DNA of 64,000 bases from Sphingobium sufflavum (GTDB taxonomy: Bacteria > Pseudomonadota > Alphaproteobacteria > Sphingomonadales > Sphingomonadaceae). This document shows positions 44,939-56,231 of this stretch, one piece after another (within the stretch, counting starts at the first letter, position 1; every line of letters starts with the position of its first letter). The stretch spans positions 124,001 through 188,000 of the forward strand of contig NZ_JAJSSH010000002.1 of NCBI RefSeq assembly GCF_021403115.1. Reading direction: 5' to 3'. Below the pieces are notes generated by a model. That model saw only the letters and a program-made list of their open reading frames with translations, did not search any database and was not told the origin of the DNA. The position numbers and the translations under genes are program-made.

Positions 44939-45076
44939 GCCGGGATGCGGGCCGGGCGGATGCGCTAATTTTCTCCGCATTTTCCGGGCCAGCCGATGAT
45001 GCCATCCGCTTCGGAAATGCTGCAGGTCCGGGTGCGCGAACGCACTGGCAGGCTGCAGGAGAGTGACCGGAAACAG

Positions 45077-45112
45077 GAAGGGGAAGCGCCGTATGGCGGC
45101 TTCCCCTTTTTC
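45077..45112 (+). terminator. intrinsic terminator (plus strand)
   Basis: A near-perfect stem (ggggaagcgcc with ggcggcttcccc, one bulged base) around a GTAT loop is followed by five T residues. It is 140 bases after the entericidin stop, so either that mRNA has a long 3' end or a small RNA ends here. Confidence 0.8.
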
Positions 45113-45163
45113 ATTCGCCTGTCTCTGTGTCGTGGCCTGTCATGGGCCTGTGCGGTCTGCGGG

Positions 45164-45316
45164 TCAGGCGTGCGCGGTTTCGTCCGCCGCGATCAGCTTT
45201 TGCAGCACCGCCACACGCTCACGCTCCGTCGACCAGTCGCGGGAGGGCTGGGCCTCCATCTGGGTGAGCAGGACTTTCAGTTCCTTGCGGCGGTCTTCCG
45301 TGGTGGTTCCGTCCAT
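45164..45316 (-). CDS. small hypothetical protein (50 aa)
   Basis: Not recognised. The start MDGTTTEDRRKELKVLL is chosen for the agagagga site upstream; a longer open frame upstream is low complexity. The peptide is helical and charged (EDRRKELKVLLTQMEAQPSRDWSTERERVAVLQKLIAADE), with no signal or membrane segment, and looks like a short coiled or two-helix protein. It is convergent with the terminator of the preceding plus-strand unit. Confidence 0.5.
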   Translation of the reverse strand: MDGTTTEDRRKELKVLLTQMEAQPSRDWSTERERVAVLQKLIAADETAHA

Positions 45317-45505
45317 GATGCGATCCTCTCTCTGCACTAGCGGGGCAGGTGGAGGGGCAACGTTTCGGGCGGCATGAGGTTTCGTCGGCGGCGGAATTTC
45401 TCGGTCGCCTGTGCCCCTATGCGGCGCTCTTGCGTGCCGTGGCCCGGCCTTCACACAGGCGCACAGGAATTGGCTCCGCGACAGGGGCGCGGAGCCAGTC
45501 CGTCC

Positions 45506-46564
45506 TTATTCCGCCGCGATCCCCGCGCGCTTGAACATATCCTCGCCCAGATCGCCGTCCACGGTCAGGCCGACATCGTTCGCGCGGGCGTTCTTGCGGC
45601 TGTCGAAATTCTCCCACACGTCGTTCCACGAGCCGCGCGTCGCGCCCTTCGAATATTCGGTCGCGCGGGTTTCGAAGAAGTTGGCATGTTCCACGCCGTT
45701 GAGCAGCGGGGTCAGCCAGGGGAGCGGGTGATCCTCGATCATGTAGATGGCGGGCAGGCCGAGTTGACCCAGGCGCCAGTCCGCGATGAAGCGGATATAC
45801 CGCTTGATCTCCTTGGCGGTCATGCCGGGCACCGGACCCTGCTCGAACGCCAAGTCGATGAAGGCATCCTCCAGCCGCACCGTCTTCTGGCAGGTGTCGA
45901 TAATGTCTTCCTTGACCGCCTTGGTCAGGCACTGCCGCTCCTTCACGAATTCGTGGAAGAGGCGGATGACGCCTTCGCAATGCAGCGTTTCGTCGCGGAC
46001 GGACCAGGTGACGATCTGGCCCATGCCCTTCATCTTGTTGAAGCGCGGGAAGTTCATCAGCATGGCGAAGGAGGCGAACAGTTGCATCCCCTCCGTAAAG
46101 CCGCCGAACATGGCCAGCGTGCGCGCGATGTCCTCGTCATTGTCCACGCCGAACTTCTGCATATAGTCATGCTTGTCGCGCATCTCCTGATATTCCAGGA
46201 ACATGCTATACTCGCTCTCCGGCATGCCGATGGTGTCGAGCAGGTGGGAATAGGCGGCGATGTGGATCGTCTCCATGTTGCTGAACGCGGTCAGCATCAT
46301 CTTGACTTCGGTGGGCTTGAACACGCGGCCGTACTTGTCGTGGTAGCAGTCCTGCACCTCGACATCCGCCTGGGTGAAGAAGCGGAAGATCTGGGTCAGC
46401 AGGTTGCGCTCATGATCGGACAGCTTCTGCGCCCAGTCGCGGCAATCCTCGCCCAGGGGCACTTCCTCCGGCATCCAGTGGACCTGCTGCTGGCGCTTCC
46501 AATAGTCATAGGCCCAGGGATATTCGAAGGGCTTATAGACCTTGCTGGCTTTGAGAAGGGACAT
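45506..46564 (-). CDS. nrdB: ribonucleoside-diphosphate reductase beta subunit (class Ia)
   Basis: A 352-residue R2 protein. The diiron and radical residues are visible: Asp67, and Glu98-x-x-His101-x-x-x-Tyr105 in METIHIAAYSHLL, where Tyr105 matches the radical tyrosine of E. coli (Tyr122). The second iron half-site is in SVRDETLHCEGV. It supplies the tyrosyl radical to NrdA for dNTP synthesis. Unusually it is about 2.4 kb away from nrdA, behind a GST and a cupin gene on the same strand (12-base gap to the GST). It has no added ATP-cone. Confidence 0.95.
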   Translation of the reverse strand: MSLLKASKVYKPFEYPWAYDYWKRQQQVHWMPEEVPLGEDCRDWAQKLSDHERNLLTQIFRFFTQADVEVQDCYHDKYGRVFKPTEVKMMLTAFSNMETIHIAAYSHLLDTIGMPESEYSMFLEYQEMRDKHDYMQKFGVDNDEDIARTLAMFGGFTEGMQLFASFAMLMNFPRFNKMKGMGQIVTWSVRDETLHCEGVIRLFHEFVKERQCLTKAVKEDIIDTCQKTVRLEDAFIDLAFEQGPVPGMTAKEIKRYIRFIADWRLGQLGLPAIYMIEDHPLPWLTPLLNGVEHANFFETRATEYSKGATRGSWNDVWENFDSRKNARANDVGLTVDGDLGEDMFKRAGIAAE

Positions 46565-46576
46565 GGATCGAGCCTT

Positions 46577-47332
46577 TCAGCGAGAGATTGCGGAATAGTC
46601 GGCGGCCGGCATATCGGGTGTCCGGCCAAAAAAACGGTCGAGGTCGTCCGGCGTCGAGCTGTGCCGCGCGGCGGTCGACGGGGTGGTGAAGGCGGCCTGC
46701 GTCCGCTCCAGCATCCGTATGGCGGCGGGGCGGGCGGCGATGCGGTCACGCCAGCGGATCAGCGCGGGATGCGCCTGCGGCTCCAGCCCATGCTGTTCAA
46801 GATATGTCGCCCAGGGCCAGGTGGCAATGTCCGCGATGCTATAGGCGTCGCCCGCGATCCACTCCCGGCTGGCGAGGCGGTCGTCGAGCAGGCGGTAGAG
46901 GCGGCGGGCGGCCTCCGTAAAGCGGCCCAGCGCATAGGCGTGGCCGATGCTGCCCGGCCCGTCGGCGCCCTGATCCTGCATCTGGAAATGGTTGAGCTGG
47001 CCCAGTTGCGGGCCGACATTGGCCATCTGCACCATCACCCATTGCATCACTTCGGCGCGGGCGGGCTGGACGGTGGGCAGCAACTGGCCGTGCGCCTCCG
47101 CCAGATAGAGGAGGATCGCGCCCGATTCCGCCAGCGGCATGCCCAGCGCGGGATCGACCAGCACCGGCACCTTGCCCAGCGGGTTGAGCGCGAGGAATTC
47201 GGGCGAGAACTGTTCCCCCCTGAACACGGCGACATGCTCCAGCGCATAGGGGAGGGCAAGCTCCTCCAGCATCAGCGCGACCTTGCGCACATTGGGGCTG
47301 TTCATGCCGTACAGGGTGAGGGCGGCGGTCAT
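46577..47332 (-). CDS. glutathione S-transferase family protein
   Basis: A 251-residue protein with an N-terminal thioredoxin-like GST domain (LYGMNSPNVRKVALMLEELALPYALEHV ... GKVPVLVDPALGMPLAESGAILLYLAE) and a helical C-terminal domain (YSIADIATWPWATYLEQHGL). It resembles the Ure2p/YghU-like or nu-class group. The substrate is unknown. Its start codon overlaps the stop of the upstream cupin gene (TGATG), so translation is coupled. It is followed by nrdB. Confidence 0.88.
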   Translation of the reverse strand: MTAALTLYGMNSPNVRKVALMLEELALPYALEHVAVFRGEQFSPEFLALNPLGKVPVLVDPALGMPLAESGAILLYLAEAHGQLLPTVQPARAEVMQWVMVQMANVGPQLGQLNHFQMQDQGADGPGSIGHAYALGRFTEAARRLYRLLDDRLASREWIAGDAYSIADIATWPWATYLEQHGLEPQAHPALIRWRDRIAARPAAIRMLERTQAAFTTPSTAARHSSTPDDLDRFFGRTPDMPAADYSAISR

Positions 47333-47793
47333 CAGATGGTCGCGCCCTTGCCCACCGGCAGCGCGGGCAGGGTGATGCTGGCCATCGTCGCCACATCCGG
47401 TCCGTCGTTGCGCCAGGCATGGACGGTGCCGCGCTGGACCACGCAGTCGCCCGCGCGGAGGGTCGCCTCGCCCACCTCCATCTCCAGCACGATCGTCCCC
47501 TTGAGGATGACCAGATAGTCGAGCGTGTCGGTGGCGTGCAGGAAGCGGCCCATGCCGACCGGCAGTTCCGTGACGGAGAAAGTGGCGCTACCGTCCTTGA
47601 GATGCTCCATCGCGAAGGGGACGGAGGCGTCCTCACCCCCGCCATTGTCGGCGGGGAGGGCGGGCGCGCGCCAGATGAGCTGGTTGCCCCGCTCCGTACG
47701 CGGCACGGGGCCGTCGATGAGGATGCAGGAGCGCCCCTGTTCATCGAGACCGGTGACGATGCGGCGCGGCCCGGTGGTGGTGGTGTCTGTCAT
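47332..47793 (-). CDS. cupin domain-containing protein
   Basis: A 153-residue protein with one cupin barrel: the first motif around GRFLHATDTLDYLVILKGTIVLEME and the second in AGDCVVQRGTVHAWRN. It keeps metal-binding His and Glu positions in part (HATDTLDY, HAW). Such proteins include small dioxygenases, isomerases and binding proteins; the role here is unknown. The ATG at 47793 is used; three more codons upstream are possible. It heads the cupin-GST-nrdB run. Confidence 0.8.
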   Translation of the reverse strand: MTDTTTTGPRRIVTGLDEQGRSCILIDGPVPRTERGNQLIWRAPALPADNGGGEDASVPFAMEHLKDGSATFSVTELPVGMGRFLHATDTLDYLVILKGTIVLEMEVGEATLRAGDCVVQRGTVHAWRNDGPDVATMASITLPALPVGKGATI

Positions 47794-47821
47794 TGGTCGC
47801 ACCCCGAATGAGACGAGCCGC

Positions 47822-47847
47822 GGAACGCGCAGGGCCGCCTCGCCGTT
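47822..47847 (+). promoter_or_regulatory. EcfG-type general stress promoter
   Basis: GGAAC at 47822-47826 and CGTT at 47844-47847 with exactly 17 bases between them, a full match to the consensus of EcfG (PhyR-NepR controlled) promoters. The DUF2171 gene starts 39 bases downstream. Confidence 0.7.
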
Positions 47848-47885
47848 GAAGCTCCAGAAGCAACATGGACGAGAGGATCATCATC

Positions 47886-48269
47886 ATGTTCGAGAAATTG
47901 CGCATCAAGCAGCATATGGAAGTCACCAACGCCAGCGGCCAGCATGTCGGCACGGTGGACGAGGTCGACGGCGACACGATCAAGCTGACGCGGAGCGACA
48001 GCAACGACGGCCAGCATCATTACCTCGACTTCGAGGCGGTGGACCGCATCGAGGATAACCGCGTCTACCTCAAAGTCGGCGCCAGCCCGCAGGCGCACGT
48101 GGCCGAGCAGCAGCACCAGTCGGGCGTGCAGCAGCCGCAGGTCGGCGGTGCTGCCAGCCAGATCGACCCGGCCACCTACGCCCCCGGCACCACGCCCGGC
48201 GCGAGCGATCCCGCCAACCCGCCGCTGTTCGGTACCGGGCATACGAGCGGGGAGCGCGCGAAATTCTGA
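47886..48269 (+). CDS. DUF2171 domain-containing protein
   Basis: A 127-residue protein. The first 65 residues match the DUF2171/PRC-like small beta-barrel (LRIKQHMEVTNASGQHVGTVDEVDGDTIKLTRSDS ... YLDFEAVDRIEDNRVYLKV). The rest is a Gln/Pro/Gly-rich, probably disordered tail (AEQQHQSGVQQPQVGGAAS). The ATG at 47886 follows a gagagg site. The EcfG promoter marks it as a general stress gene. Molecular function is unknown. Confidence 0.8.
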   Translation: MFEKLRIKQHMEVTNASGQHVGTVDEVDGDTIKLTRSDSNDGQHHYLDFEAVDRIEDNRVYLKVGASPQAHVAEQQHQSGVQQPQVGGAASQIDPATYAPGTTPGASDPANPPLFGTGHTSGERAKF

Positions 48270-48419
48270 TCGCGCGATCCGACGCGTTGCCCCGGCAAGG
48301 GTGCGGCGCACAGAGCTAGCAGCGCGGGGCATGCGACCATGTCCGACGCGCTCGGCCCCGGTGGACATCCGTGCCACCGGGGTTTCTCTTGTCCGTGAAG
48401 GGAGCGGGGTTGCCATTCC

Positions 48420-48911
48420 CTAGCCCTTTTCAGGCGTGAAGACCGGGTCGGTTCGGGTGAACTCGACCGGCACGCCATCGGAGGGGGAATAGACATGAAC
48501 CCAGAAATGCGCCTGCGCCGCGCGGGGTTGGACCCGTTCGGGAGCCAGCCGATAGGTTTCGACCATCTTCTGGCAAAGCTGGTTGGATATGTCCGGCGCG
48601 GACTGGCTCATCAGCACTTCGCAGGATAGCGCGCGCGGCGACCCTGCCGCAAACGCCATGTTGACCTGCATGCTGGCGGTGCGATCCGCGGGCGTCGTCG
48701 GCCGTTCCCTGTCCGTCGCAATCCGCGGCGCATCGGGATTGAAAAACCACAGGGGGAGCGTGGCGCCGAGCTGCTTGAGCCGGTCCATCGAAATCGGCAC
48801 GGTGGCCGTCACGGACACCCCTTGATAGGCGCCGATGATCTGTGCGGAGGCCGTGGGGGCGATCGACAAGAGTGTCAACGCCCCCGCGAGGATGGGACTA
48901 TAGCGGATCAT
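48420..48911 (-). CDS. secreted hypothetical protein (163 aa)
   Basis: Not recognised. It has a clear signal peptide (MIRYSPILAGALTLLSIAPTASAQ) and a mature beta-rich domain (GVSVTATVPISMDRLKQLGATLPLWFFNPDAPRI ... AHFWVHVYSPSDGVPVEFT), with two cysteines (CEVLM and QLCQKM) that may pair. It should be periplasmic. It lies just downstream of nrdA on the same strand (20-base gap) and may be read from the nrdA transcript, with no evident functional link. Confidence 0.65.
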   Translation of the reverse strand: MIRYSPILAGALTLLSIAPTASAQIIGAYQGVSVTATVPISMDRLKQLGATLPLWFFNPDAPRIATDRERPTTPADRTASMQVNMAFAAGSPRALSCEVLMSQSAPDISNQLCQKMVETYRLAPERVQPRAAQAHFWVHVYSPSDGVPVEFTRTDPVFTPEKG

Positions 48912-48931
48912 GGCGCGCGCACGTCCGCCCG

Positions 48932-50890
48932 TCACTGACAGGCGAGACATTCGTCATAGTCGGTGGTCGTCGCCAGTTCGATGCGGGGCGCGTCGGGCGT
49001 GTTGTCCGCCTCCACACCGCCCGCGAAACCGGCGCGCTGGATCGACTTGGAGCGCAGGTAATAGAGCGACTTGATGCCCAGTTCCCATGCGCGGAAGTGC
49101 AGCATGAGCAAATCCCACTTCTCCACGTCCGCCGGGATGAACAGGTTCAGCGACTGCGCCTGGTCGATATAGGGCGTGCGGTCGGCGGCCAGTTCGAGCA
49201 GCCAGCGCTGGTCGATCTCGAAGCTGGTCTTGAACGTGTCCTTCTCGTCTGGCGTCAGGAAGTCGAGGTGCTGGACCGAACCGCCCTTCTCCAGGATCGA
49301 GTTCCAGACGTTGGTCGAATCCTTCGACTTCGCCTGGAGGATCTTCTCCAGATAGGGGTTCTTGACGATGAAGCTGCCCGACAGCGTCTTGTGCGTGTAG
49401 ATGTTCGCCGGGATCGGTTCGATGCAGGCCGACGTGCCGCCGCAGATGATACTGATCGACGCGGTGGGCGCGATCGCCATCTTGCAGGAGAAACGCTCCA
49501 TCACGCCCTGATCGGCGGCGTCGGGGCAGGGGCCGCGCTCCTGCGCCAGCATCATCGATGCCTCGTTCGCCTTGGCGTTGATATGCTTGAAGATCTTGAG
49601 GTTCCACGACTTCGCCAGCGCGCTCTCGAACGGGATGTTGCGCTGTTGCAGGAAACTGTGGAAACCCATGATGCCCATGCCGACCGACCGTTCGCGCGTC
49701 GCCGAATATTTGGCGCGGGCCATCTCTTCCGGTGCGCGGTCGATATAGTCCTGAAGCACATTGTCGAGGAAGCGCATCACATCCTCGATGAACAGCTTGT
49801 CGTCCTTCCACTCTTCCCACGTCTCGATGTTGAGCGAGGACAGGCAGCAGACGGCGGTGCGATCATTGCCGAGATGGTCGCGGCCAGTGGGCAGCGTGAT
49901 CTCGGAACACAGGTTGGAGGTGGAAACCTTCAGCCCCACGTCGCGGTGATGCTTGGGCATCATGCGGTTCACCGTGTCGGAGAAGACGATGTACGGCTCA
50001 CCCGTGGCGAGGCGGTTCTCGACGATCTTCTGGAACAAGCTGCGCGCATCGACGGTGTTGCGGACGCTGTTGTCCTTTGGCGAACGCAGCGCGAACTCCT
50101 TGCCGTCGCGCACCGCCTCCATGAACTCGTCGGTGATGAGCACGCCATGGTGCAGGTTCAGCGCCTTGCGGTTGAAGTCGCCGGACGGCTTGCGGATTTC
50201 GAGGAACTCCTCAATCTCCGGGTGGCTGATGTCGAGATAGCAGGCGGCCGAGCCACGGCGCAGCGAACCCTGCGAAATGGCGAGGGTAAGGCTGTCCATG
50301 ACGCGCACGAAGGGGATGATGCCACTGGTCTTGCCGTTGAGGCCGACCGGCTCGCCGATGCCGCGCACCGCGCCCCAATAGGTGCCGATGCCGCCGCCGC
50401 GCGAGGCGAGCCAGACATTCTCGTTCCAGGTGTTCACAATGCCCTGAAGGCTGTCGTCGACCTGGTTGAGGAAGCAGGAGATGGGCAGGCCGCGCCCGGT
50501 GCCACCGTTGGACAGCACCGGCGTCGCGGGCATGAACCACAGGCGCGAGATATAGTCATAGATACGCTGGGCATGCGCCTGATCGTCGGAATAGGCGGAG
50601 GCGACGCGGGCGAACAGATCCTGATAGCTTTCGCCGGGCAGGAGGTAGCGGTCGTTCAGCGTGTCCTTGCCGAATTCGGTCAGCAGCGCGTCGCGCGACG
50701 AATCGGTGACGATGTCGAAGCGACGCTCCGCCACGGCGTTGGACGCCAGCGGTTTCGCGGCGGCGGGCGCAGGCGCGCCGGTGGCGCCTGTTTCCGAAGC
50801 CGCGGCGGCCTCCGAAGCGGCGGGCGAGGGAGCGGGACGGGTTTCCAGCACGGTGTCGTCAGTTCCTGTCTGCATATCGCGAAAATCCAC
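48932..50890 (-). CDS. nrdA: ribonucleoside-diphosphate reductase alpha subunit, without ATP-cone
   Basis: A 652-residue class I R1 protein, about 110 shorter than E. coli NrdA. The reductase barrel is complete: FMPATPVLSNGG, the active-site cysteine segment STSNLCSEI, MGIMGFHSFLQQR, PTASISIICGGTSACIEP and the C-terminal redox pair CLAC. The N-terminal ATP-cone activity-control domain is missing; an Ala/Pro-rich stretch of about 45 residues stands there instead. It starts with a GTG at 50890 (ggggg site upstream); an ATG at 50875 is possible. Two NrdR boxes lie upstream. Confidence 0.94.
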   Translation of the reverse strand: MDFRDMQTGTDDTVLETRPAPSPAASEAAAASETGATGAPAPAAAKPLASNAVAERRFDIVTDSSRDALLTEFGKDTLNDRYLLPGESYQDLFARVASAYSDDQAHAQRIYDYISRLWFMPATPVLSNGGTGRGLPISCFLNQVDDSLQGIVNTWNENVWLASRGGGIGTYWGAVRGIGEPVGLNGKTSGIIPFVRVMDSLTLAISQGSLRRGSAACYLDISHPEIEEFLEIRKPSGDFNRKALNLHHGVLITDEFMEAVRDGKEFALRSPKDNSVRNTVDARSLFQKIVENRLATGEPYIVFSDTVNRMMPKHHRDVGLKVSTSNLCSEITLPTGRDHLGNDRTAVCCLSSLNIETWEEWKDDKLFIEDVMRFLDNVLQDYIDRAPEEMARAKYSATRERSVGMGIMGFHSFLQQRNIPFESALAKSWNLKIFKHINAKANEASMMLAQERGPCPDAADQGVMERFSCKMAIAPTASISIICGGTSACIEPIPANIYTHKTLSGSFIVKNPYLEKILQAKSKDSTNVWNSILEKGGSVQHLDFLTPDEKDTFKTSFEIDQRWLLELAADRTPYIDQAQSLNLFIPADVEKWDLLMLHFRAWELGIKSLYYLRSKSIQRAGFAGGVEADNTPDAPRIELATTTDYDECLACQ

Positions 50891-51024
50891 TTTGCGCCCC
50901 CAACTTGCTCATTATCCGTTCGATCCGGTCTCTACCGACAGCTCCGGCGACAGTTTCGGCACCCCTGAAGGATGGCAAACGGCGCGAAAGGCCCCATGAC
51001 GGAAAGCGATGCTCCCGCCCTGCG

Positions 51025-51040
51025 ACACAATCTGTAGAGT
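51025..51040. promoter_or_regulatory. NrdR box 1 upstream of nrdA
   Basis: ACACAATCTGTAGAGT matches the 16-base NrdR consensus (acaCwAtATaTwGtgt) at 13 positions. It lies 135 bases before the nrdA start, and its left end is 32 bases from that of box 2. Confidence 0.7.
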
Positions 51041-51056
51041 GCTCCCCTTACTCCGA

Positions 51057-51072
51057 ACACTATGGATAGTGC
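51057..51072. promoter_or_regulatory. NrdR box 2 upstream of nrdA
   Basis: ACACTATGGATAGTGC matches the NrdR consensus at 13 of 16 positions. The 32-base offset from box 1 (three helical turns) is the spacing known for NrdR operators of ribonucleotide reductase genes. Confidence 0.72.
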
Positions 51073-51247
51073 CACAGCCGAATCTCGACGCAAGAGGATA
51101 AACGCAGGATTAACGGCTCGGTTCACCGCTGAAAAGACTCGCCTCATGGAGGGGGCGAGGGGGGTGACAGGGCGCGACGCGCGGACTTTCCTGCACTTGG
51201 GAGCGGTGCAAGGGAAAAAATGGCCCGGCGCGGGGAAAAATTAAAAC

Positions 51248-51256
51248 TGTGGATAA
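51248..51256 (-). promoter_or_regulatory. consensus DnaA box
   Basis: TGTGGATAA on the plus strand is the complement of TTATCCACA, a perfect DnaA box, next to an AT-rich run (aaaaattaaaa). It lies about 360 bases upstream of nrdA. DnaA controls nrdAB in E. coli, so a similar role is possible; a single box may also be chance. Confidence 0.4.
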
Positions 51257-51497
51257 GGGGGAGGAGGGTGCCGTCCGGCGCGCAGGACGGTCATCGAGGA
51301 CCGTCATTCTGCAGGGTTCGACCGACACGCGGAAAGGGCCGGACGAGAGGGGATTCGAGTCCCCTTTCCCATCCAGCCCCCGCGCCCGAGGCATCCTCCT
51401 CCGTTCATTGCGAAGATGGAATATTCGGCTTAATTTTTTATGTATCCGGCAGGGAAAATCCCACTTTTCCGAGCTTTATGGATAGCGGTGCAGGCTG

Positions 51498-52091
51498 TCA
51501 GCGGTCGCGGCGCAGGATGATGTAGAGCGCGCCGTCGCCGCCATGGCGCGGATGGGCGACGCGCACGCTGGCGATGCGGTCGGCATGGGGGGAGCGTTCG
51601 AGCCAGTGGCCGATCTCCGCCCGGATCGCGCCGCGTCCTTCGGGGGCGATGCGGCCGGGCCGGGGCTTGCCGGTGACGACCAGCAGCACCCGCACCCCGT
51701 CGCGCCGGGCGGCCCCCAGCGCGGTGTCGAGCGTGGCATGGGCGCCCGCCAGATTATGGCCGTGGAGGTCGACGCTGCGTTCCGGCTGGAGCGTGCCGGA
51801 CCGGATGCGCTTCTCCCACCCGCTGTCGAGCGTTGCGACCGGCTCCCGCCGGGCGGGTGGCGGCGGGGGGGCGGGCGCGGGACGGAGCGGGGGCACGCGG
51901 CCCTTCACCCGCGCGGCGGGCGCGGGCGGCGGGGGGGGCAGGTCGGGAAGGGGTGGCGCGGGGCGCGGCGCGGCGGTGCGGGCCGGGGCGGCGTCACGGC
52001 GCAGCAGGCGGACGCTGCGCGCCAGATGCTGCCACAGCAACTCCTCCTCCGGGCTGAGCGGGCGTCCGCCACCGGGGCGGCGCGGGGTCAT
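51498..52091 (-). CDS. smr: Smr/MutS2 domain protein
   Basis: A 197-residue protein. The N-terminal half is Pro/Arg-rich and probably disordered (PLPDLPPPPPAPAARVKGRVPPL); the C-terminal half is a Smr domain with the DLHGHNLAGAHATLD motif and LLVVTGKPRPG. Smr domains are nucleases acting on DNA or RNA. It begins a minus-strand set after mltA and timA, an order conserved in alphaproteobacteria near secB. Confidence 0.85.
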   Translation of the reverse strand: MTPRRPGGGRPLSPEEELLWQHLARSVRLLRRDAAPARTAAPRPAPPLPDLPPPPPAPAARVKGRVPPLRPAPAPPPPPARREPVATLDSGWEKRIRSGTLQPERSVDLHGHNLAGAHATLDTALGAARRDGVRVLLVVTGKPRPGRIAPEGRGAIRAEIGHWLERSPHADRIASVRVAHPRHGGDGALYIILRRDR

Positions 52092-52256
52092 GTCAGCGGC
52101 CCGGCAGGAGGGTGATGAGGTGCGCCAACGGATTTGGCGCCGGCACGGACGGAACAGGCGACAGGGACAGCGGTATGCGCGATGGCGATGGGGCTGGCAG
52201 CGACCGGTGGGTGCGCGACAGAGGTGTCAGCGGGGACGGCATCGGCGCGGGTGGCA

Positions 52257-53519
52257 TCAGCGCGGGGCGAGGCGCGCGGCGGTGCCGATGGGGAGCAGCA
52301 GCCAGGCGTTCCCCCGCGCCGACATGCCGCCCGCGATGGTGCGCGCGTCGGACCCTGCGCCCCAGAAGGTATCGAAGCGGTTCGACCCCTTGATCGCGCC
52401 GCCGGTATCCTGCGCCACCCACAGGCCGTTGGCCTCATCCCGGTCCATAGTCAGGAGGACGGGCGCGCCCAGCGGCACATATTTGGGATCGGCGGCGACG
52501 GTGGCGCGCGGCGTGACCGCAATGCCCAGCGCGCCAAGCGGCCCGGCCCCGGTCAGTTCGCGGAAGAAGATATAGCTGCGATTCTCGTTCATGATCCGGC
52601 GACCATCGACGGGGTTGGCGCGCAGCCACTGCATGATGTCCTGCATCGACCCGGCCTTGATGAGGCCGCGATCCTTCATCAACTTGCCGATGCCGGTATA
52701 GTCGCGGCCATTCTGCCCGGCATAGCCGACGCGCAGGATGCTGCCGTCGGGCTGGCGCAGGCGGCCCGATCCCTGAACCTCCAGGAAGAACAGCTCGATG
52801 GGGTCGTTGGCATAGGCGATTTCGAGGCCGCGCCCGCTGAGCGACCCGGCGGTGATCTCCGCCCGCTCGTCAAAGGGGATGAAGTTGGTGCCCGACACTT
52901 TGCCCCGGATGGTCTTGCCCTTGAGCGCCTCGCTGAACTTGCCGAGGTCGACGTCGATCAGATTGTCGGGACGGCGATAGAGGGGCGTGGCGCAACTGGC
53001 GGTGGGCGTGCGGCAGCCGGCGATCTCCGGCTCATAATAGCCGGTGGCATAGGCGCGGCCATCGGCGATCTGCACCGCTTCGAAATTGCGGCGGAAGAAT
53101 TCGCGGGCCTGTCCGTCGCTCCAGCTCGCGGCGTTGCTGCACGCGGATTGCCAGTCGCTGCCCGCGGTCAGGCCGGACGTGTCGGTGCGGCGCATCAGCG
53201 AAGGGCAGGTGGCGCGGAAGGCGCGGAGCGCATCGGCCAGACGCGCCGAATCGGCGGGCAGCAGCGTGTCGAGGTCGGGGCCGAGGATCACGCCGGCCGA
53301 AGCCGCCATGCCGTCGGTGACGGGTGTCGTCGCGGTGGAGGGCGATAGGGGAGCGGGGGTGGGCCGGGGTGTCGTCGGTACAGGCGCGGGTGCGGGCCGG
53401 GGCGCAGGCCGGGGCCGGGTTGACGGAGTCGCGGGCGTGCGGGCCGATTCCGGGATGACGGTGCAGGCACTGATGGCAAAGGCCAGCGCGGAGATCGCGG
53501 CCAGATGGCTCCAGCGCAT
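52257..53519 (-). CDS. mltA: membrane-bound lytic murein transglycosylase A
   Basis: A 420-residue lipoprotein (signal with SACTVIPES) with a Pro/Thr-rich linker of about 45 residues, a MltA domain (FRRNFEAVQIADGRAYATGYYEPEIAG) and the C-terminal 3D domain with AQDTGGAIKGSNRFDTFWGAG, which holds the catalytic Asp. It cleaves the glycan strands of peptidoglycan, making 1,6-anhydromuramic ends. It is followed after 165 bases by smr and preceded by timA. The ATG has an aggggaag site. Confidence 0.93.
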   Translation of the reverse strand: MRWSHLAAISALAFAISACTVIPESARTPATPSTRPRPAPRPAPAPVPTTPRPTPAPLSPSTATTPVTDGMAASAGVILGPDLDTLLPADSARLADALRAFRATCPSLMRRTDTSGLTAGSDWQSACSNAASWSDGQAREFFRRNFEAVQIADGRAYATGYYEPEIAGCRTPTASCATPLYRRPDNLIDVDLGKFSEALKGKTIRGKVSGTNFIPFDERAEITAGSLSGRGLEIAYANDPIELFFLEVQGSGRLRQPDGSILRVGYAGQNGRDYTGIGKLMKDRGLIKAGSMQDIMQWLRANPVDGRRIMNENRSYIFFRELTGAGPLGALGIAVTPRATVAADPKYVPLGAPVLLTMDRDEANGLWVAQDTGGAIKGSNRFDTFWGAGSDARTIAGGMSARGNAWLLLPIGTAARLAPR

Positions 53520-53651
53520 GGTCTTCCCCTTTTTGTCCCGGACGATCCCGGCAGCGAATGAAAAGGAACCGGACCGGATCGGTACATCCGGTCAGGCGAT
53601 CAGATGGCGCGGTACAGGGAGCACGTCGCGATAAACCCTGACGCCAAGGCC

Positions 53652-54302
53652 TCAAACCTCGTCGGTGGCGACCAGAATCCAGTCGGGCGAGCGGCTGCGC
53701 AGGTCGCGCGCGAAGGTCCAGATTTCCCGCGTGGGAATGGCGTCCTCCAGCGAACCGGCGATCATCACGCCATCCGCATCGCGGGTAACGGCGGCGATGT
53801 CCGCTTCGAACTGCACGGTGATCTGGGCGGTGCTGCCGTTCAGCACGGCCTCGCCGATGCGGGCGGTGTCGATGCGGACCAGTCGGTTTTCAAGGCTGTG
53901 GCCTGCGGTGACGCGGTCGTCGATGGCGGTGGCGAAGGCGCCATAGACATCGTCGTCGCACAGCGCGCGCAGGCGGTCCTTATCACCCTGCCAGAAGGCT
54001 TCGAGGATCATGCCATAGGCGGCGCGCGCGCCGACGAGGAAGCGGGTCACGTCGAAACTGCGGTCGATTGCGATGATCGCGCGGATCCCGCCCTGCGCGT
54101 CGGGGGCCATCAGCGCATCACCGACGCGGACCGGATCGGGCCGGGCGTCGACGGCGGGACGCGCGGCGGACAGCGGCACCGCCGGACGGTCGTCGGCGGG
54201 GGCAGGCATCTGCTGCTCATGACCCGTGCGCTTGCCCAGCACCGAATAAAGGCGCAGCGCCAGAAGCGCGAAAATCATGGCAAGAATGACGATGACGGTC
54301 AC
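53652..54302 (-). CDS. timA: Tim44/TimA family putative adaptor protein
   Basis: A 216-residue protein with one N-terminal transmembrane helix (VIVILAMIFALLALRLYSVLG), a short linker, and a Tim44-like domain (FLVGARAAYGMILEAFWQGDKDRLRALCDDDVYGAF ... TREIWTFARDLRSRSPDWILVATDEV). It is the bacterial relative of the mitochondrial import motor subunit and occurs beside mltA in alphaproteobacteria. Its partner is not established. It starts with a GTG after a gggagc site. Confidence 0.88.
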   Translation of the reverse strand: MTVIVILAMIFALLALRLYSVLGKRTGHEQQMPAPADDRPAVPLSAARPAVDARPDPVRVGDALMAPDAQGGIRAIIAIDRSFDVTRFLVGARAAYGMILEAFWQGDKDRLRALCDDDVYGAFATAIDDRVTAGHSLENRLVRIDTARIGEAVLNGSTAQITVQFEADIAAVTRDADGVMIAGSLEDAIPTREIWTFARDLRSRSPDWILVATDEV

Positions 54303-54657
54303 GACGCTCCCAAACCTTCCTGTGCTGCAAATCCGGCGACCGTGGTTCGGTCATGCGTGCAGCCAACCGTTGACATAGGCAATTTATGCGCGGGATTCAA
54401 ATAGACTGGCCCGCTATTGTTCGTTTCCGGCACGATAGCCCGGCTTGTCGCGGCGAACATGGGTGCGAACCGTTCGGCGCGCGGGGGTGAAGGGGGGCGA
54501 AAGGCGGACGTCATGATCGCCCTAACGGGTGAGGGCCGCGGTGGTTTCATCGGGCGTAACGAATCCTGTCACCGGGGGGACAAATCGCAGACCGGAAGGG
54601 GGCAGGTTCGCGAGAATCAGGCCCGTGAGGATAGAAGCAGCCGCGCGTGGCCCGCCT
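54303..54657. other. gap between timA and the alpha/beta hydrolase gene
   Basis: A 355-base stretch. It has a TTGACA at 54370-54375 with no good -10, and on the minus strand TTGAAT-17-TATGTC, which could be a weak timA promoter. I see no gene, RNA or repeat in it. Confidence 0.5.
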
Positions 54658-55530
54658 TCAGAGAAACTCCGTCAGCGAGGCGATGAAATCGTCGAAGCGG
54701 TCGTGGTGGACCCAATGGCCCGCGCCGTCATAGACGATGGTGCGATGGTCGCGCAGGTGCCGGGCGCGGCCGTCCTCCTCCGGGTCGGTGGTCCAGCTTT
54801 CGGTGCCATAATAGAGGAGGGTGGGGACGGTGACGCCCTGCCAGAAGGCTTCGCCGCCGACCGCGAAGTCGTGGGGCGCGAACATCTGAACGCGCGGATC
54901 GAACTTCCACGACCAGCCATCGGGATGCTGGCGCGCGCCATGGATGGCGAGGTGCCGGGCCTGTTCCGCGCTGAGGTGCGGATTGCCCTTTGCCATGCGC
55001 TCGACCATCTCCTCGATGGTGGCGAAGCGGCGCTGCGACGTGGCGCGCGGGTTGCGGCGTTTTTCCACCCATTCCCGCAGCCGGACGACGGGGCCGACCG
55101 CATCCCAGCCAGCGATGGCGTTGGGCGCGGGGCCGAGACCGTCGACCACCACCAGCTTCTCCACCCGGTCGGGATACAGCGCGGCATAGTGCCAACTGAT
55201 GTTGCCGCCGAAGCTGTGGCCGAGGATCGTCACCTTGTCCGCCCCCAGATGATCGACCAGTTCGACCAGATCGAGGACATGATAGGGGGCGAGATAGCCG
55301 CCGTCCGCCGACCAGTCGCTGTCCCCATGGCCGCGCAGGTCCATCGCGACGACATGGAAACGGTCGCGCAGCGCGCGCGCCGTCCAGTCCCAGCTGCGCG
55401 CATGGTCCGCATTGCCGTGCAACAGGATCAGCACCGGCGCGCCCGCATTACCCCAGTCGAGATAATGGATGGCCAGCCCCTGCGAATCGATGGTGCGGGA
55501 GACGGGTTCGGGGGAAAGGCTCTGGGTCAT
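54658..55530 (-). CDS. alpha/beta fold hydrolase
   Basis: A 290-residue enzyme of the epoxide-hydrolase/haloalkane-dehalogenase-like group. It has the oxyanion segment LLHGNADHARSWDWTARAL, the nucleophile elbow ILGHSFGGNISWHYAAL (Ser), a cap domain rich in Arg and Trp, and the C-terminal His in VYDGAGHWVHHDRFDDFI. No signal peptide. The substrate is not evident; serine at the elbow favours an esterase or lipase over a dehalogenase. It stands alone. Confidence 0.88.
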   Translation of the reverse strand: MTQSLSPEPVSRTIDSQGLAIHYLDWGNAGAPVLILLHGNADHARSWDWTARALRDRFHVVAMDLRGHGDSDWSADGGYLAPYHVLDLVELVDHLGADKVTILGHSFGGNISWHYAALYPDRVEKLVVVDGLGPAPNAIAGWDAVGPVVRLREWVEKRRNPRATSQRRFATIEEMVERMAKGNPHLSAEQARHLAIHGARQHPDGWSWKFDPRVQMFAPHDFAVGGEAFWQGVTVPTLLYYGTESWTTDPEEDGRARHLRDHRTIVYDGAGHWVHHDRFDDFIASLTEFL

Positions 55531-55649: not shown

Positions 55650-56231
55650 CTATGCGGCGATGCGCGCCGCCCTGGCCCGGCCTACGCGCCGTTGCCAGCG
55701 CAGAAGGGCATAGGTGAGGGTGACGATCCCCGCCATCATCGTGGAAAACAGGCTTTCCGATCCGCGCCGCCGCTCCATGGCCCTGTCGTCGTCCAGCAGG
55801 CTGCGATAGGAAGCCGCCGAGGCGTGGAGCAGGTTGAGCATGTCCTTACGCTCCCGCAATATCCGCCCCGACTTCAGCCGGATTTCGGTGGCATAGCGCG
55901 TCCCGTCCAGCGTGATGACGTCGATGGCGGCGATGTGCGGCTGGGCGTCCTTCCACGCTTCCACCGGGCATCGCAGGCAATAGAGATAGTGCCGCTCGCC
56001 ATCCTTGCGATAGTAGAAATAGTTCGATCCCTTGCCCCGTCGCCGGTTGAAGGTCACGCCGCTGACCGTCTGCTCCGGCGCCTCCAGTGCGTGGAGGTAG
56101 AGAAGCAGCGCCGCATTATAGGTGCGGACATCGTCGGCGCGGCTGGGGGAGGGGAGCGATTGCACCAGCGCGAAGGTGCCGATGAAGACCAGCGTATAGC
56201 GGGCGATCCTGCGTATCATCCTGCCCATCAT
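55650..56231 (-). CDS. membrane-anchored hypothetical protein (193 aa)
   Basis: Not recognised. A likely signal peptide or first membrane segment (RYTLVFIGTFALVQSLPSPSRA) is followed by a soluble domain with YNAALLLYLHALEAPEQTVSGVTFNRRRGKGSNYFYYRKDGERHYLYCLRCPVEAW, including a CLRC pair that could bind metal or form a disulfide, then a second membrane segment near the C-terminus (STMMAGIVTLTYALLRW). It is divergent from secB, whose neighbourhood is otherwise conserved. Confidence 0.6.
   Translation of the reverse strand: MMGRMIRRIARYTLVFIGTFALVQSLPSPSRADDVRTYNAALLLYLHALEAPEQTVSGVTFNRRRGKGSNYFYYRKDGERHYLYCLRCPVEAWKDAQPHIAAIDVITLDGTRYATEIRLKSGRILRERKDMLNLLHASAASYRSLLDDDRAMERRRGSESLFSTMMAGIVTLTYALLRWQRRVGRARAARIAA

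Follow-up and report, generated by a model that had tools for sequence, protein, structure and literature searches.

A putative NrdR operator upstream of nrdA in Sphingobium sufflavum, with nrdB set apart and lacking a paired site of its own

We analyzed a window of 64,000 nucleotides from Sphingobium sufflavum (Sphingomonadaceae; contig NZ_JAJSSH010000002.1, positions 124,001 to 188,000; coordinates below count from the first base of the window) and found that two 16-bp sites upstream of nrdA, the gene for the alpha subunit of class I ribonucleotide reductase, very probably serve the repressor NrdR as its operator at the nrdA promoter, which would turn nrdA down when deoxyadenosine triphosphate (dATP) is high. 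Box 1, the upstream (distal) half, lies at 51057–51072 on the minus strand (ACACTATGGATAGTGC), and box 2, the downstream (proximal) half, at 51025–51040 on the same strand (ACACAATCTGTAGAGT). Each box differs at 3 of 16 positions from ACACWATATWTWGTGT, which we take to be the NrdR box consensus, and the family matrix gave them scores of 16.8 and 15.7, respectively. Their left ends are 32 bp apart, leaving a 16-bp spacer and placing the centers three helical turns from each other. An earlier note on this DNA had claimed these two sites with 13 of 16 matches each, and our consensus scan reproduced both the coordinates and the matches. The locus thus combines what characterizes an NrdR operator: two imperfect 16-bp palindromes whose centers are separated by whole helical turns (three or four), a reductase gene downstream, and nrdR in the genome.

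Within the window, consensus matches numbered four when counted strand-wise (two places) against 0.11 expected, and none of 100 dinucleotide shuffles reached four. A whole-genome site scan, which the earlier note had proposed as a check, identified 13 distinct consensus places, among which only the two nrdA boxes had a partner at 30–34 or 41–43 bp. The partner scores were 15.7 and 16.8 for the nrdA boxes, compared with 2.4 for the best partner of any other place. As candidates for further NrdR targets, the other 11 places had no partner box, including the strongest of them, GCACAATATATTGTGC at C23:443098. A weaker pair, scoring 14.9 with the first matrices, was observed inside a predicted gene at 55975 on the plus strand of the window.

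The pair is conserved across the family. Our sample comprised 119 Sphingomonadaceae genomes at least 90% complete, with nrdA found in 118 and nrdB in 118; the fragmentary G092, with no match to either gene, was dropped, and G059 and G030, whose nrdA genes lie at contig ends with less than 300 bp upstream, stand outside the 116 genomes scored. Using a symmetric matrix, we detected a pair scoring at least 12 at nrdA in 110 of these 116 (109 of 115 when family-matrix counts were restricted to loci with 600 bp upstream). The six below 12 were four nrdR-less genomes plus G032 and, by a narrow margin, G048. With leave-one-out refined matrices, 108 of 117 upstream regions exceeded 9.7, the maximum among 585 shuffled regions; the nine below it were the same four nrdR-less genomes, the contig end G059, and the nrdR-bearing G005, G032, G041, and G047. 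Left-to-left spacings were 31–34 bp in 109 genomes and 30 bp in one, 32 bp being the commonest (47 of 110). The pair was also present at all 30 genus loci examined (30 nrdA and 30 nrdB loci out of 61 genomes), with a lowest score of 17.8, and at all 80 named Sphingomonadaceae loci, with a lowest score of 16.3; the latter are the best 80 of 595 named records by NrdA, mostly Sphingobium, and some may share species. Conservation of the boxes upstream of related nrdA genes, on which the earlier note had made its reading depend, was therefore found in all three sets.

The distribution of nrdR itself supplies the best evidence that the pair would be read by NrdR. The gene was missing from six of the 119 genomes (G006, G095, G016, G100, G021, and G092), and the four near-complete ones, G006 and G095 of one genus and G016 and G100 of another, all lack the pair. 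In a protein tree of the family, which left out G118, G075, G061, G059, and G030, each of the two nrdR-less genera formed a well-supported pair apart from the other, and one of these pairs was nested within a supported clade of nrdR-bearing genomes, so that at least two losses are needed. When 327 genomes at least 99% complete were searched by scoring the 21 best candidates per genome, ten lacked nrdR: eight of the first genus (G006, G095, G210, G253, G283, G326, G342, and G358) and two of the second (G016 and G100). G307, from the same genus as the eight, retains nrdR. A prediction fixed before scoring was borne out, with a pair score of 23.9 in G307 and scores of −5.6 to 0.1 in six nrdR-less sister genomes. 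Overall, the pair was present in 120 of 122 nrdR-bearing genomes (G048 counted; 119 of 122 at the cut-off of 12) and in 1 of 11 nrdR-less genomes, counts whose Fisher values are not corrected for relatedness. The scoring of this prediction, like that of the genus and named loci, drew mostly on genomes outside matrix training.

Several observations weigh against the operator reading. G021, an assembly of 380 contigs, has a pair though no nrdR was found. Two members of a single genus, G032 and G392, lack the pair at nrdA despite having nrdR; the other eight members examined have it, as does G113 under leave-one-out scoring, and the nrdB gene of G032, some 73 kb distant, is preceded by a modest pair (13.5). 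The pair in G048 is borderline (10.9) and fails at the cut-off of 12, and in the stricter leave-one-out scoring the nrdR-bearing G005, G041, and G047 fall under the shuffled maximum. Since 83 of the family genomes scored had also served to train the symmetric matrix, the proportion of 110 in 116 is partly circular, and because only the 21 best candidates were scored, the absence of nrdR from the six newly added genomes is slightly less sure than that established in the 119-genome sample. The nrdA promoter described below was placed by prediction and was not called by a consensus promoter scan. Finally, single consensus matches in the whole 4.43-Mb genome occur at background frequency, 19 strand-wise versus 18 for the reversed pattern; one box alone therefore means little, and it is the pairing that carries the signal. 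The same background frequency is what favors regarding the boxes as chance matches or as the sites of another regulator, but this explanation conflicts with the unique pairing, the conservation, the joint loss with nrdR, and the pairs at detached nrdB genes, and the joint loss makes it very unlikely.

The presumed regulator is encoded in S. sufflavum. The earlier note had made its reading hinge on nrdR, and the gene was found intact, encoding 153 amino acids that score over the TIGR00244 cut-off, carry a Zn-ribbon and an ATP-cone, and align over residues 1–144 or more to the solved NrdR chains 9fvr and 7p37. No pair that might indicate autoregulation was detected in 3.1 kb around nrdR. An ATP-cone domain search of the 119 genomes yielded a single match in 111, two matches each in G020 and G104, and none in six, which are exactly the six without nrdR, including the four nrdR-less genomes of the two genera. 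The single match was placed in nrdR by position for S. sufflavum (G000) and by agreeing counts for the other genomes. In S. sufflavum, the cone within nrdR is the only one in the genome, with none on NrdA or NrdB. NrdR is thus probably the reductase's only ATP-cone sensor of dATP, and we infer that it may be its only dATP sensor of any kind. The second ATP-cones of G020 and G104 (G020:C7:330182-330448 and G104:C1:1136797-1137063) were observed in frames of 677 and 675 amino acids, roughly 10 kb from nrdA.

The arrangement of the nrdA promoter suggests how repression might work. A −35-like hexamer, TTGCGT (51088–51093, minus strand), and a −10-like hexamer, CACTAT (51066–51071, minus strand), are predicted 16 bp apart, the latter within box 1. 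An element reading CTTGCG or CTTGCA precedes box 1 in 29 of 30 genus loci, as counted by eye in the alignment, the exception being G132; with this predicted placement, the −10 element would fall within box 1. Box 2 ends 134 bp from the nrdA start (GTG at 50890), and the N-terminus MDFR was also read in G312 and G363. At high dATP, NrdR loaded with ATP and dATP would, judging from other species, form a tetramer that grips both boxes, and the bound protein would mask the predicted −10 element (at box 1) together with the early transcribed region (at box 2), shutting off nrdA. With no ATP-cone on either subunit and the sole cone in NrdR, the operator would probably be the main dATP feedback on the enzyme.

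The two subunit genes are separated. The nrdA gene (48932–50890, minus strand; 652 amino acids) has barrel and N-terminal reductase domains (PF02867 and PF00317) with no ATP-cone (PF03477) and scores over the NF006577 cut-off; its best solved match is 6dqw, a 585-amino-acid alpha chain. The gene nrdB, for the radical-generating beta subunit (45506–46564, minus strand; 352 amino acids), matches PF00268 and scores over the NF007186 cut-off. These are the only PF02867 and PF00268 genes in the genome. The earlier note had called the enzyme class Ia; a Tyr in the NrdB motif ETIHIAAY, read by eye as the presumable counterpart of Y122 of Escherichia coli, would fit that assignment, but NrdA lacks the ATP-cone carried by NrdA of E. 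coli class Ia. The claimed layout, with nrdB in a separate cupin-GST-nrdB run 2.4 kb from nrdA, was recovered with a gap of 2370 bp. The run begins with a cupin-like gene (47332–47802, minus strand; Cupin_2 at 27.1 bits, marginally below the 27.2 cut-off), which overlaps by one base the gene of the glutathione S-transferase (GST) family (46577–47332, minus strand; PF02798 and others), and nrdB follows 12 bp after the latter. Between nrdA and the cupin gene, the co-directional nrdA and nrdB enclose an opposite-strand DUF2171 gene (47865–48269, plus strand; PF09939), and an open reading frame of 176 amino acids with no family matched (48420–48950, minus strand) overlaps the nrdA stop. Among the family nrdA–nrdB gaps longer than 200 bp, which were those searched, the GST was found in S. 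sufflavum only and a cupin match only in S. sufflavum and G112; 41 of 106 gaps hold an inverted DUF2171, and the 176-residue frame had no counterpart in the other gaps searched.

We next turn to nrdB, whose upstream stretches (600 bp) were scanned with the nrdA-derived matrix at a pair cut-off of 12. The earlier note had stated that the boxes precede nrdA only and had suggested looking for sites before the cupin gene; indeed, no pair was detected anywhere in the 2370-bp gap of S. sufflavum, the best score being 0.1. Across the family, a pair scoring at least 12 was present in 7 of 12 genomes whose nrdB is detached or sits on a separate contig and at 8 of 55 gaps longer than 1 kb, compared with none of the 19 gaps of 400–1000 bp and none of the 32 shorter than 400 bp. 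The pairs at detached nrdB genes indicate that the motif tracks the reductase genes, while the lowest nrdB scores are marginal, since in first-order resampling of the upstream stretches the 99.9th percentile was 12.8 and the largest of 1180 values 14.0. An nrdB pair was found in 3 of 67 named loci with nrdB in reach and in 5 of 30 genus loci (G072, G150, G156, G158, and G171). A similar nrdB promoter, CGCTAGACATTGTGG...TAGCAT...CCCCTTCATCTTG, is shared by G072, G150, G156, G171, G176, and SYK-6; the nrdB pairs of G158 and S. subterraneum are of different form. S. sufflavum has no relic of this promoter, agreeing at 21 of 45 bases compared with 33–43 of 45 in the six motif-source genomes.

These patterns make it plausible that the two subunits are regulated differently in S. 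sufflavum, and there is an even chance, in our judgment, that NrdR throttles the reductase through the alpha subunit alone, with nrdB having no operator of its own. Two results count against this step: nrdB has no pair in 98 of the 106 family genomes where it lies near nrdA, which read-through from nrdA would explain, and the group holding S. sufflavum in a tree of 26 chosen rows (15 rows, with a weak support of 77/99) is mixed, comprising, besides S. sufflavum itself, the six members with the similar nrdB promoter noted above and eight adjacent-arrangement genomes without nrdB boxes that form one well-supported clade. A loss of NrdR control of nrdB in the S. sufflavum lineage is possible, and about as likely is that the linked arrangement was kept together with read-through.

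Under such read-through, RNA from the NrdR-controlled nrdA promoter would cross DUF2171 into cupin-GST-nrdB, making one transcription unit, a noncontiguous operon, in which a single operator serves both subunits. We consider this a serious possibility, if a somewhat doubtful one. In 106 of 118 family genomes, the two genes share a strand and are no more than 16 kb apart, with gaps from 63 bp to 12.5 kb, although a kept orientation is also expected if genes were merely inserted between them. The contrast between detached nrdB genes and those at gaps under 1 kb, where none of 51 has a pair, looks as if the nrdA operator serves both genes while they are linked, and 35 of the 41 gaps with an inverted DUF2171 likewise have no nrdB pair of at least 12; yet SYK-6, with a gap of 2137 bp, and S. 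subterraneum, one of the three named loci noted above and with a gap of only 873 bp, are still linked and have nrdB pairs. Read-through must also span 2.4 kb containing an antisense gene. In its favor, only one terminator-like site was called between 45300 and 51600, inside the 176-residue frame, a number below the shuffled mean of 3.6, and noncontiguous operons have been described (PMC7154746). That NrdR instead controls nrdB through a site too divergent to be recognized, or through one inside the GST or cupin gene, would accord with relatives that have one strong and one weak nrdB box (12.2 and 1.2 in G072), but with no pair above 0.1 in the entire gap and no trace of the congeners' nrdB promoter, it is improbable.

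NrdR control was reportedly described by Rodionov and Gelfand in 2005 through phylogenetic profiling. The operators of Streptomyces coelicolor, E. coli, Listeria, and Streptococcus are likewise built from a pair of palindromes, separated by about 16 bp, that stand ahead of a reductase gene. Compared with these, the Sphingobium boxes are less A+T-rich, GCACTATCNNTNGT standing at the place of box 1 in most of the 30 aligned genus loci; in S. sufflavum the pair occurs at nrdA only; and the family spacing ranges over 30–34 bp left to left, which means an 18-bp spacer in 27 of 110 genomes. Paired boxes three helical turns apart are presented as the standard operator in PMC12051234, PMC12176259, and PMC9110341, the first of which reports that spacers of 15–17 bp were bound best by the four NrdR proteins tested. 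Promoter overlap, predicted here at nrdA, is similarly reported for E. coli nrdAB and S. pneumoniae nrdDG. In the part of PMC5343134 available, NrdR is recorded in 186 genomes and in 20 regulogs of 21 proteobacterial taxonomic groups and is never autoregulated, in line with the lack of a nearby pair at S. sufflavum nrdR; that part specifies neither the genes nor the arrangements of Sphingomonadales and does not take up a split nrdA and nrdB. Class I reductases without an ATP-cone, namely NrdE, NrdAi, and NrdAk, are described in PMC5794259; S. sufflavum NrdA resembles them in this respect, and its beta subunit differs from what is described there in having no cone either. Deletion of nrdR in Caulobacter gave a mild phenotype, which the authors put down to raised deoxynucleoside triphosphates (dNTPs) (PMC12186491). 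Our literature search, which left most subscription journals outside, found no paper joining NrdR with Sphingomonas and, among the titles listed, none that concerns a split nrdA and nrdB. The operator itself belongs to the known NrdR type; what merits further study is its occurrence at detached nrdB genes, along with the absence of an ATP-cone from the reductase.

Other features of the region were also examined. A perfect DnaA-box sequence, TTATCCACA, lies upstream of nrdA at 51248–51256 on the minus strand, and TT(A/T)TCCACA was found upstream of nrdA in just 7 of 116 genomes at variable positions, compared with 3 of 118 upstream of nrdB and a mean of 0.9 (largest 2) in shuffles. The DnaA box upstream of nrdA is above chance yet no family feature, and DnaA control of nrdA was set aside. 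Rfam at gathering thresholds gave no match for a structured leader RNA in 45000–55000, and ARAGORN detected no tRNA in the window; a short hairpin resembling a tRNA T-arm, GGGGA-TTCGAG-TCCCC (51349–51364), lies within 600 bp upstream of nrdA. Further upstream, Smr-domain, MltA, and Tim44-like genes stand in a row (51498–54302). A plasmid origin of nrdA or nrdB was likewise set aside, as just six and seven plasmid records matched and none covered 80% of the query. A different arrangement of such genes close to nrdA occurs in Novosphingobium sp. PC22D (L332), where relatives of the cupin (50%) and the GST (58%) are encoded downstream of nrdA on the opposite strand. As for irregular reductase genes, G007 has an additional nrdB copy that contains one in-frame stop (G007:C1:393834-394856), and the nrdB match of G120 is in two pieces with an in-frame stop (G120:C44:100289-101367). 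G177, of the genus Sphingobium and reported as 100% complete with a contamination of 5, has no nrdB match and two distant NrdA-like matches (26–27% identity, frames of 748 and 770 amino acids), and it possibly relies on another reductase class.

Taken at the family level, a tentative and rather doubtful proposal is that the class I reductase of Sphingomonadaceae lost dATP inhibition through an ATP-cone, that the cone of NrdR became the only dATP brake, and that the operator follows the subunit genes; nrdB of S. sufflavum would then have left the regulon, giving alpha-only feedback, and the two nrdR-less lineages would have no known dATP feedback. What is unusual is that S. sufflavum nrdB has no switch while several relatives have one; the nrdA switch itself is ordinary. 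This raises the questions of whether control of one subunit holds dNTP pools and of how the nrdR-less lineages avoid dATP overproduction. The family offers a clean natural experiment, in which nrdR disappears along with its operator and nrdB is sometimes a neighbor of nrdA and sometimes not, for an enzyme without an ATP-cone whose transcription may be its only dATP feedback.
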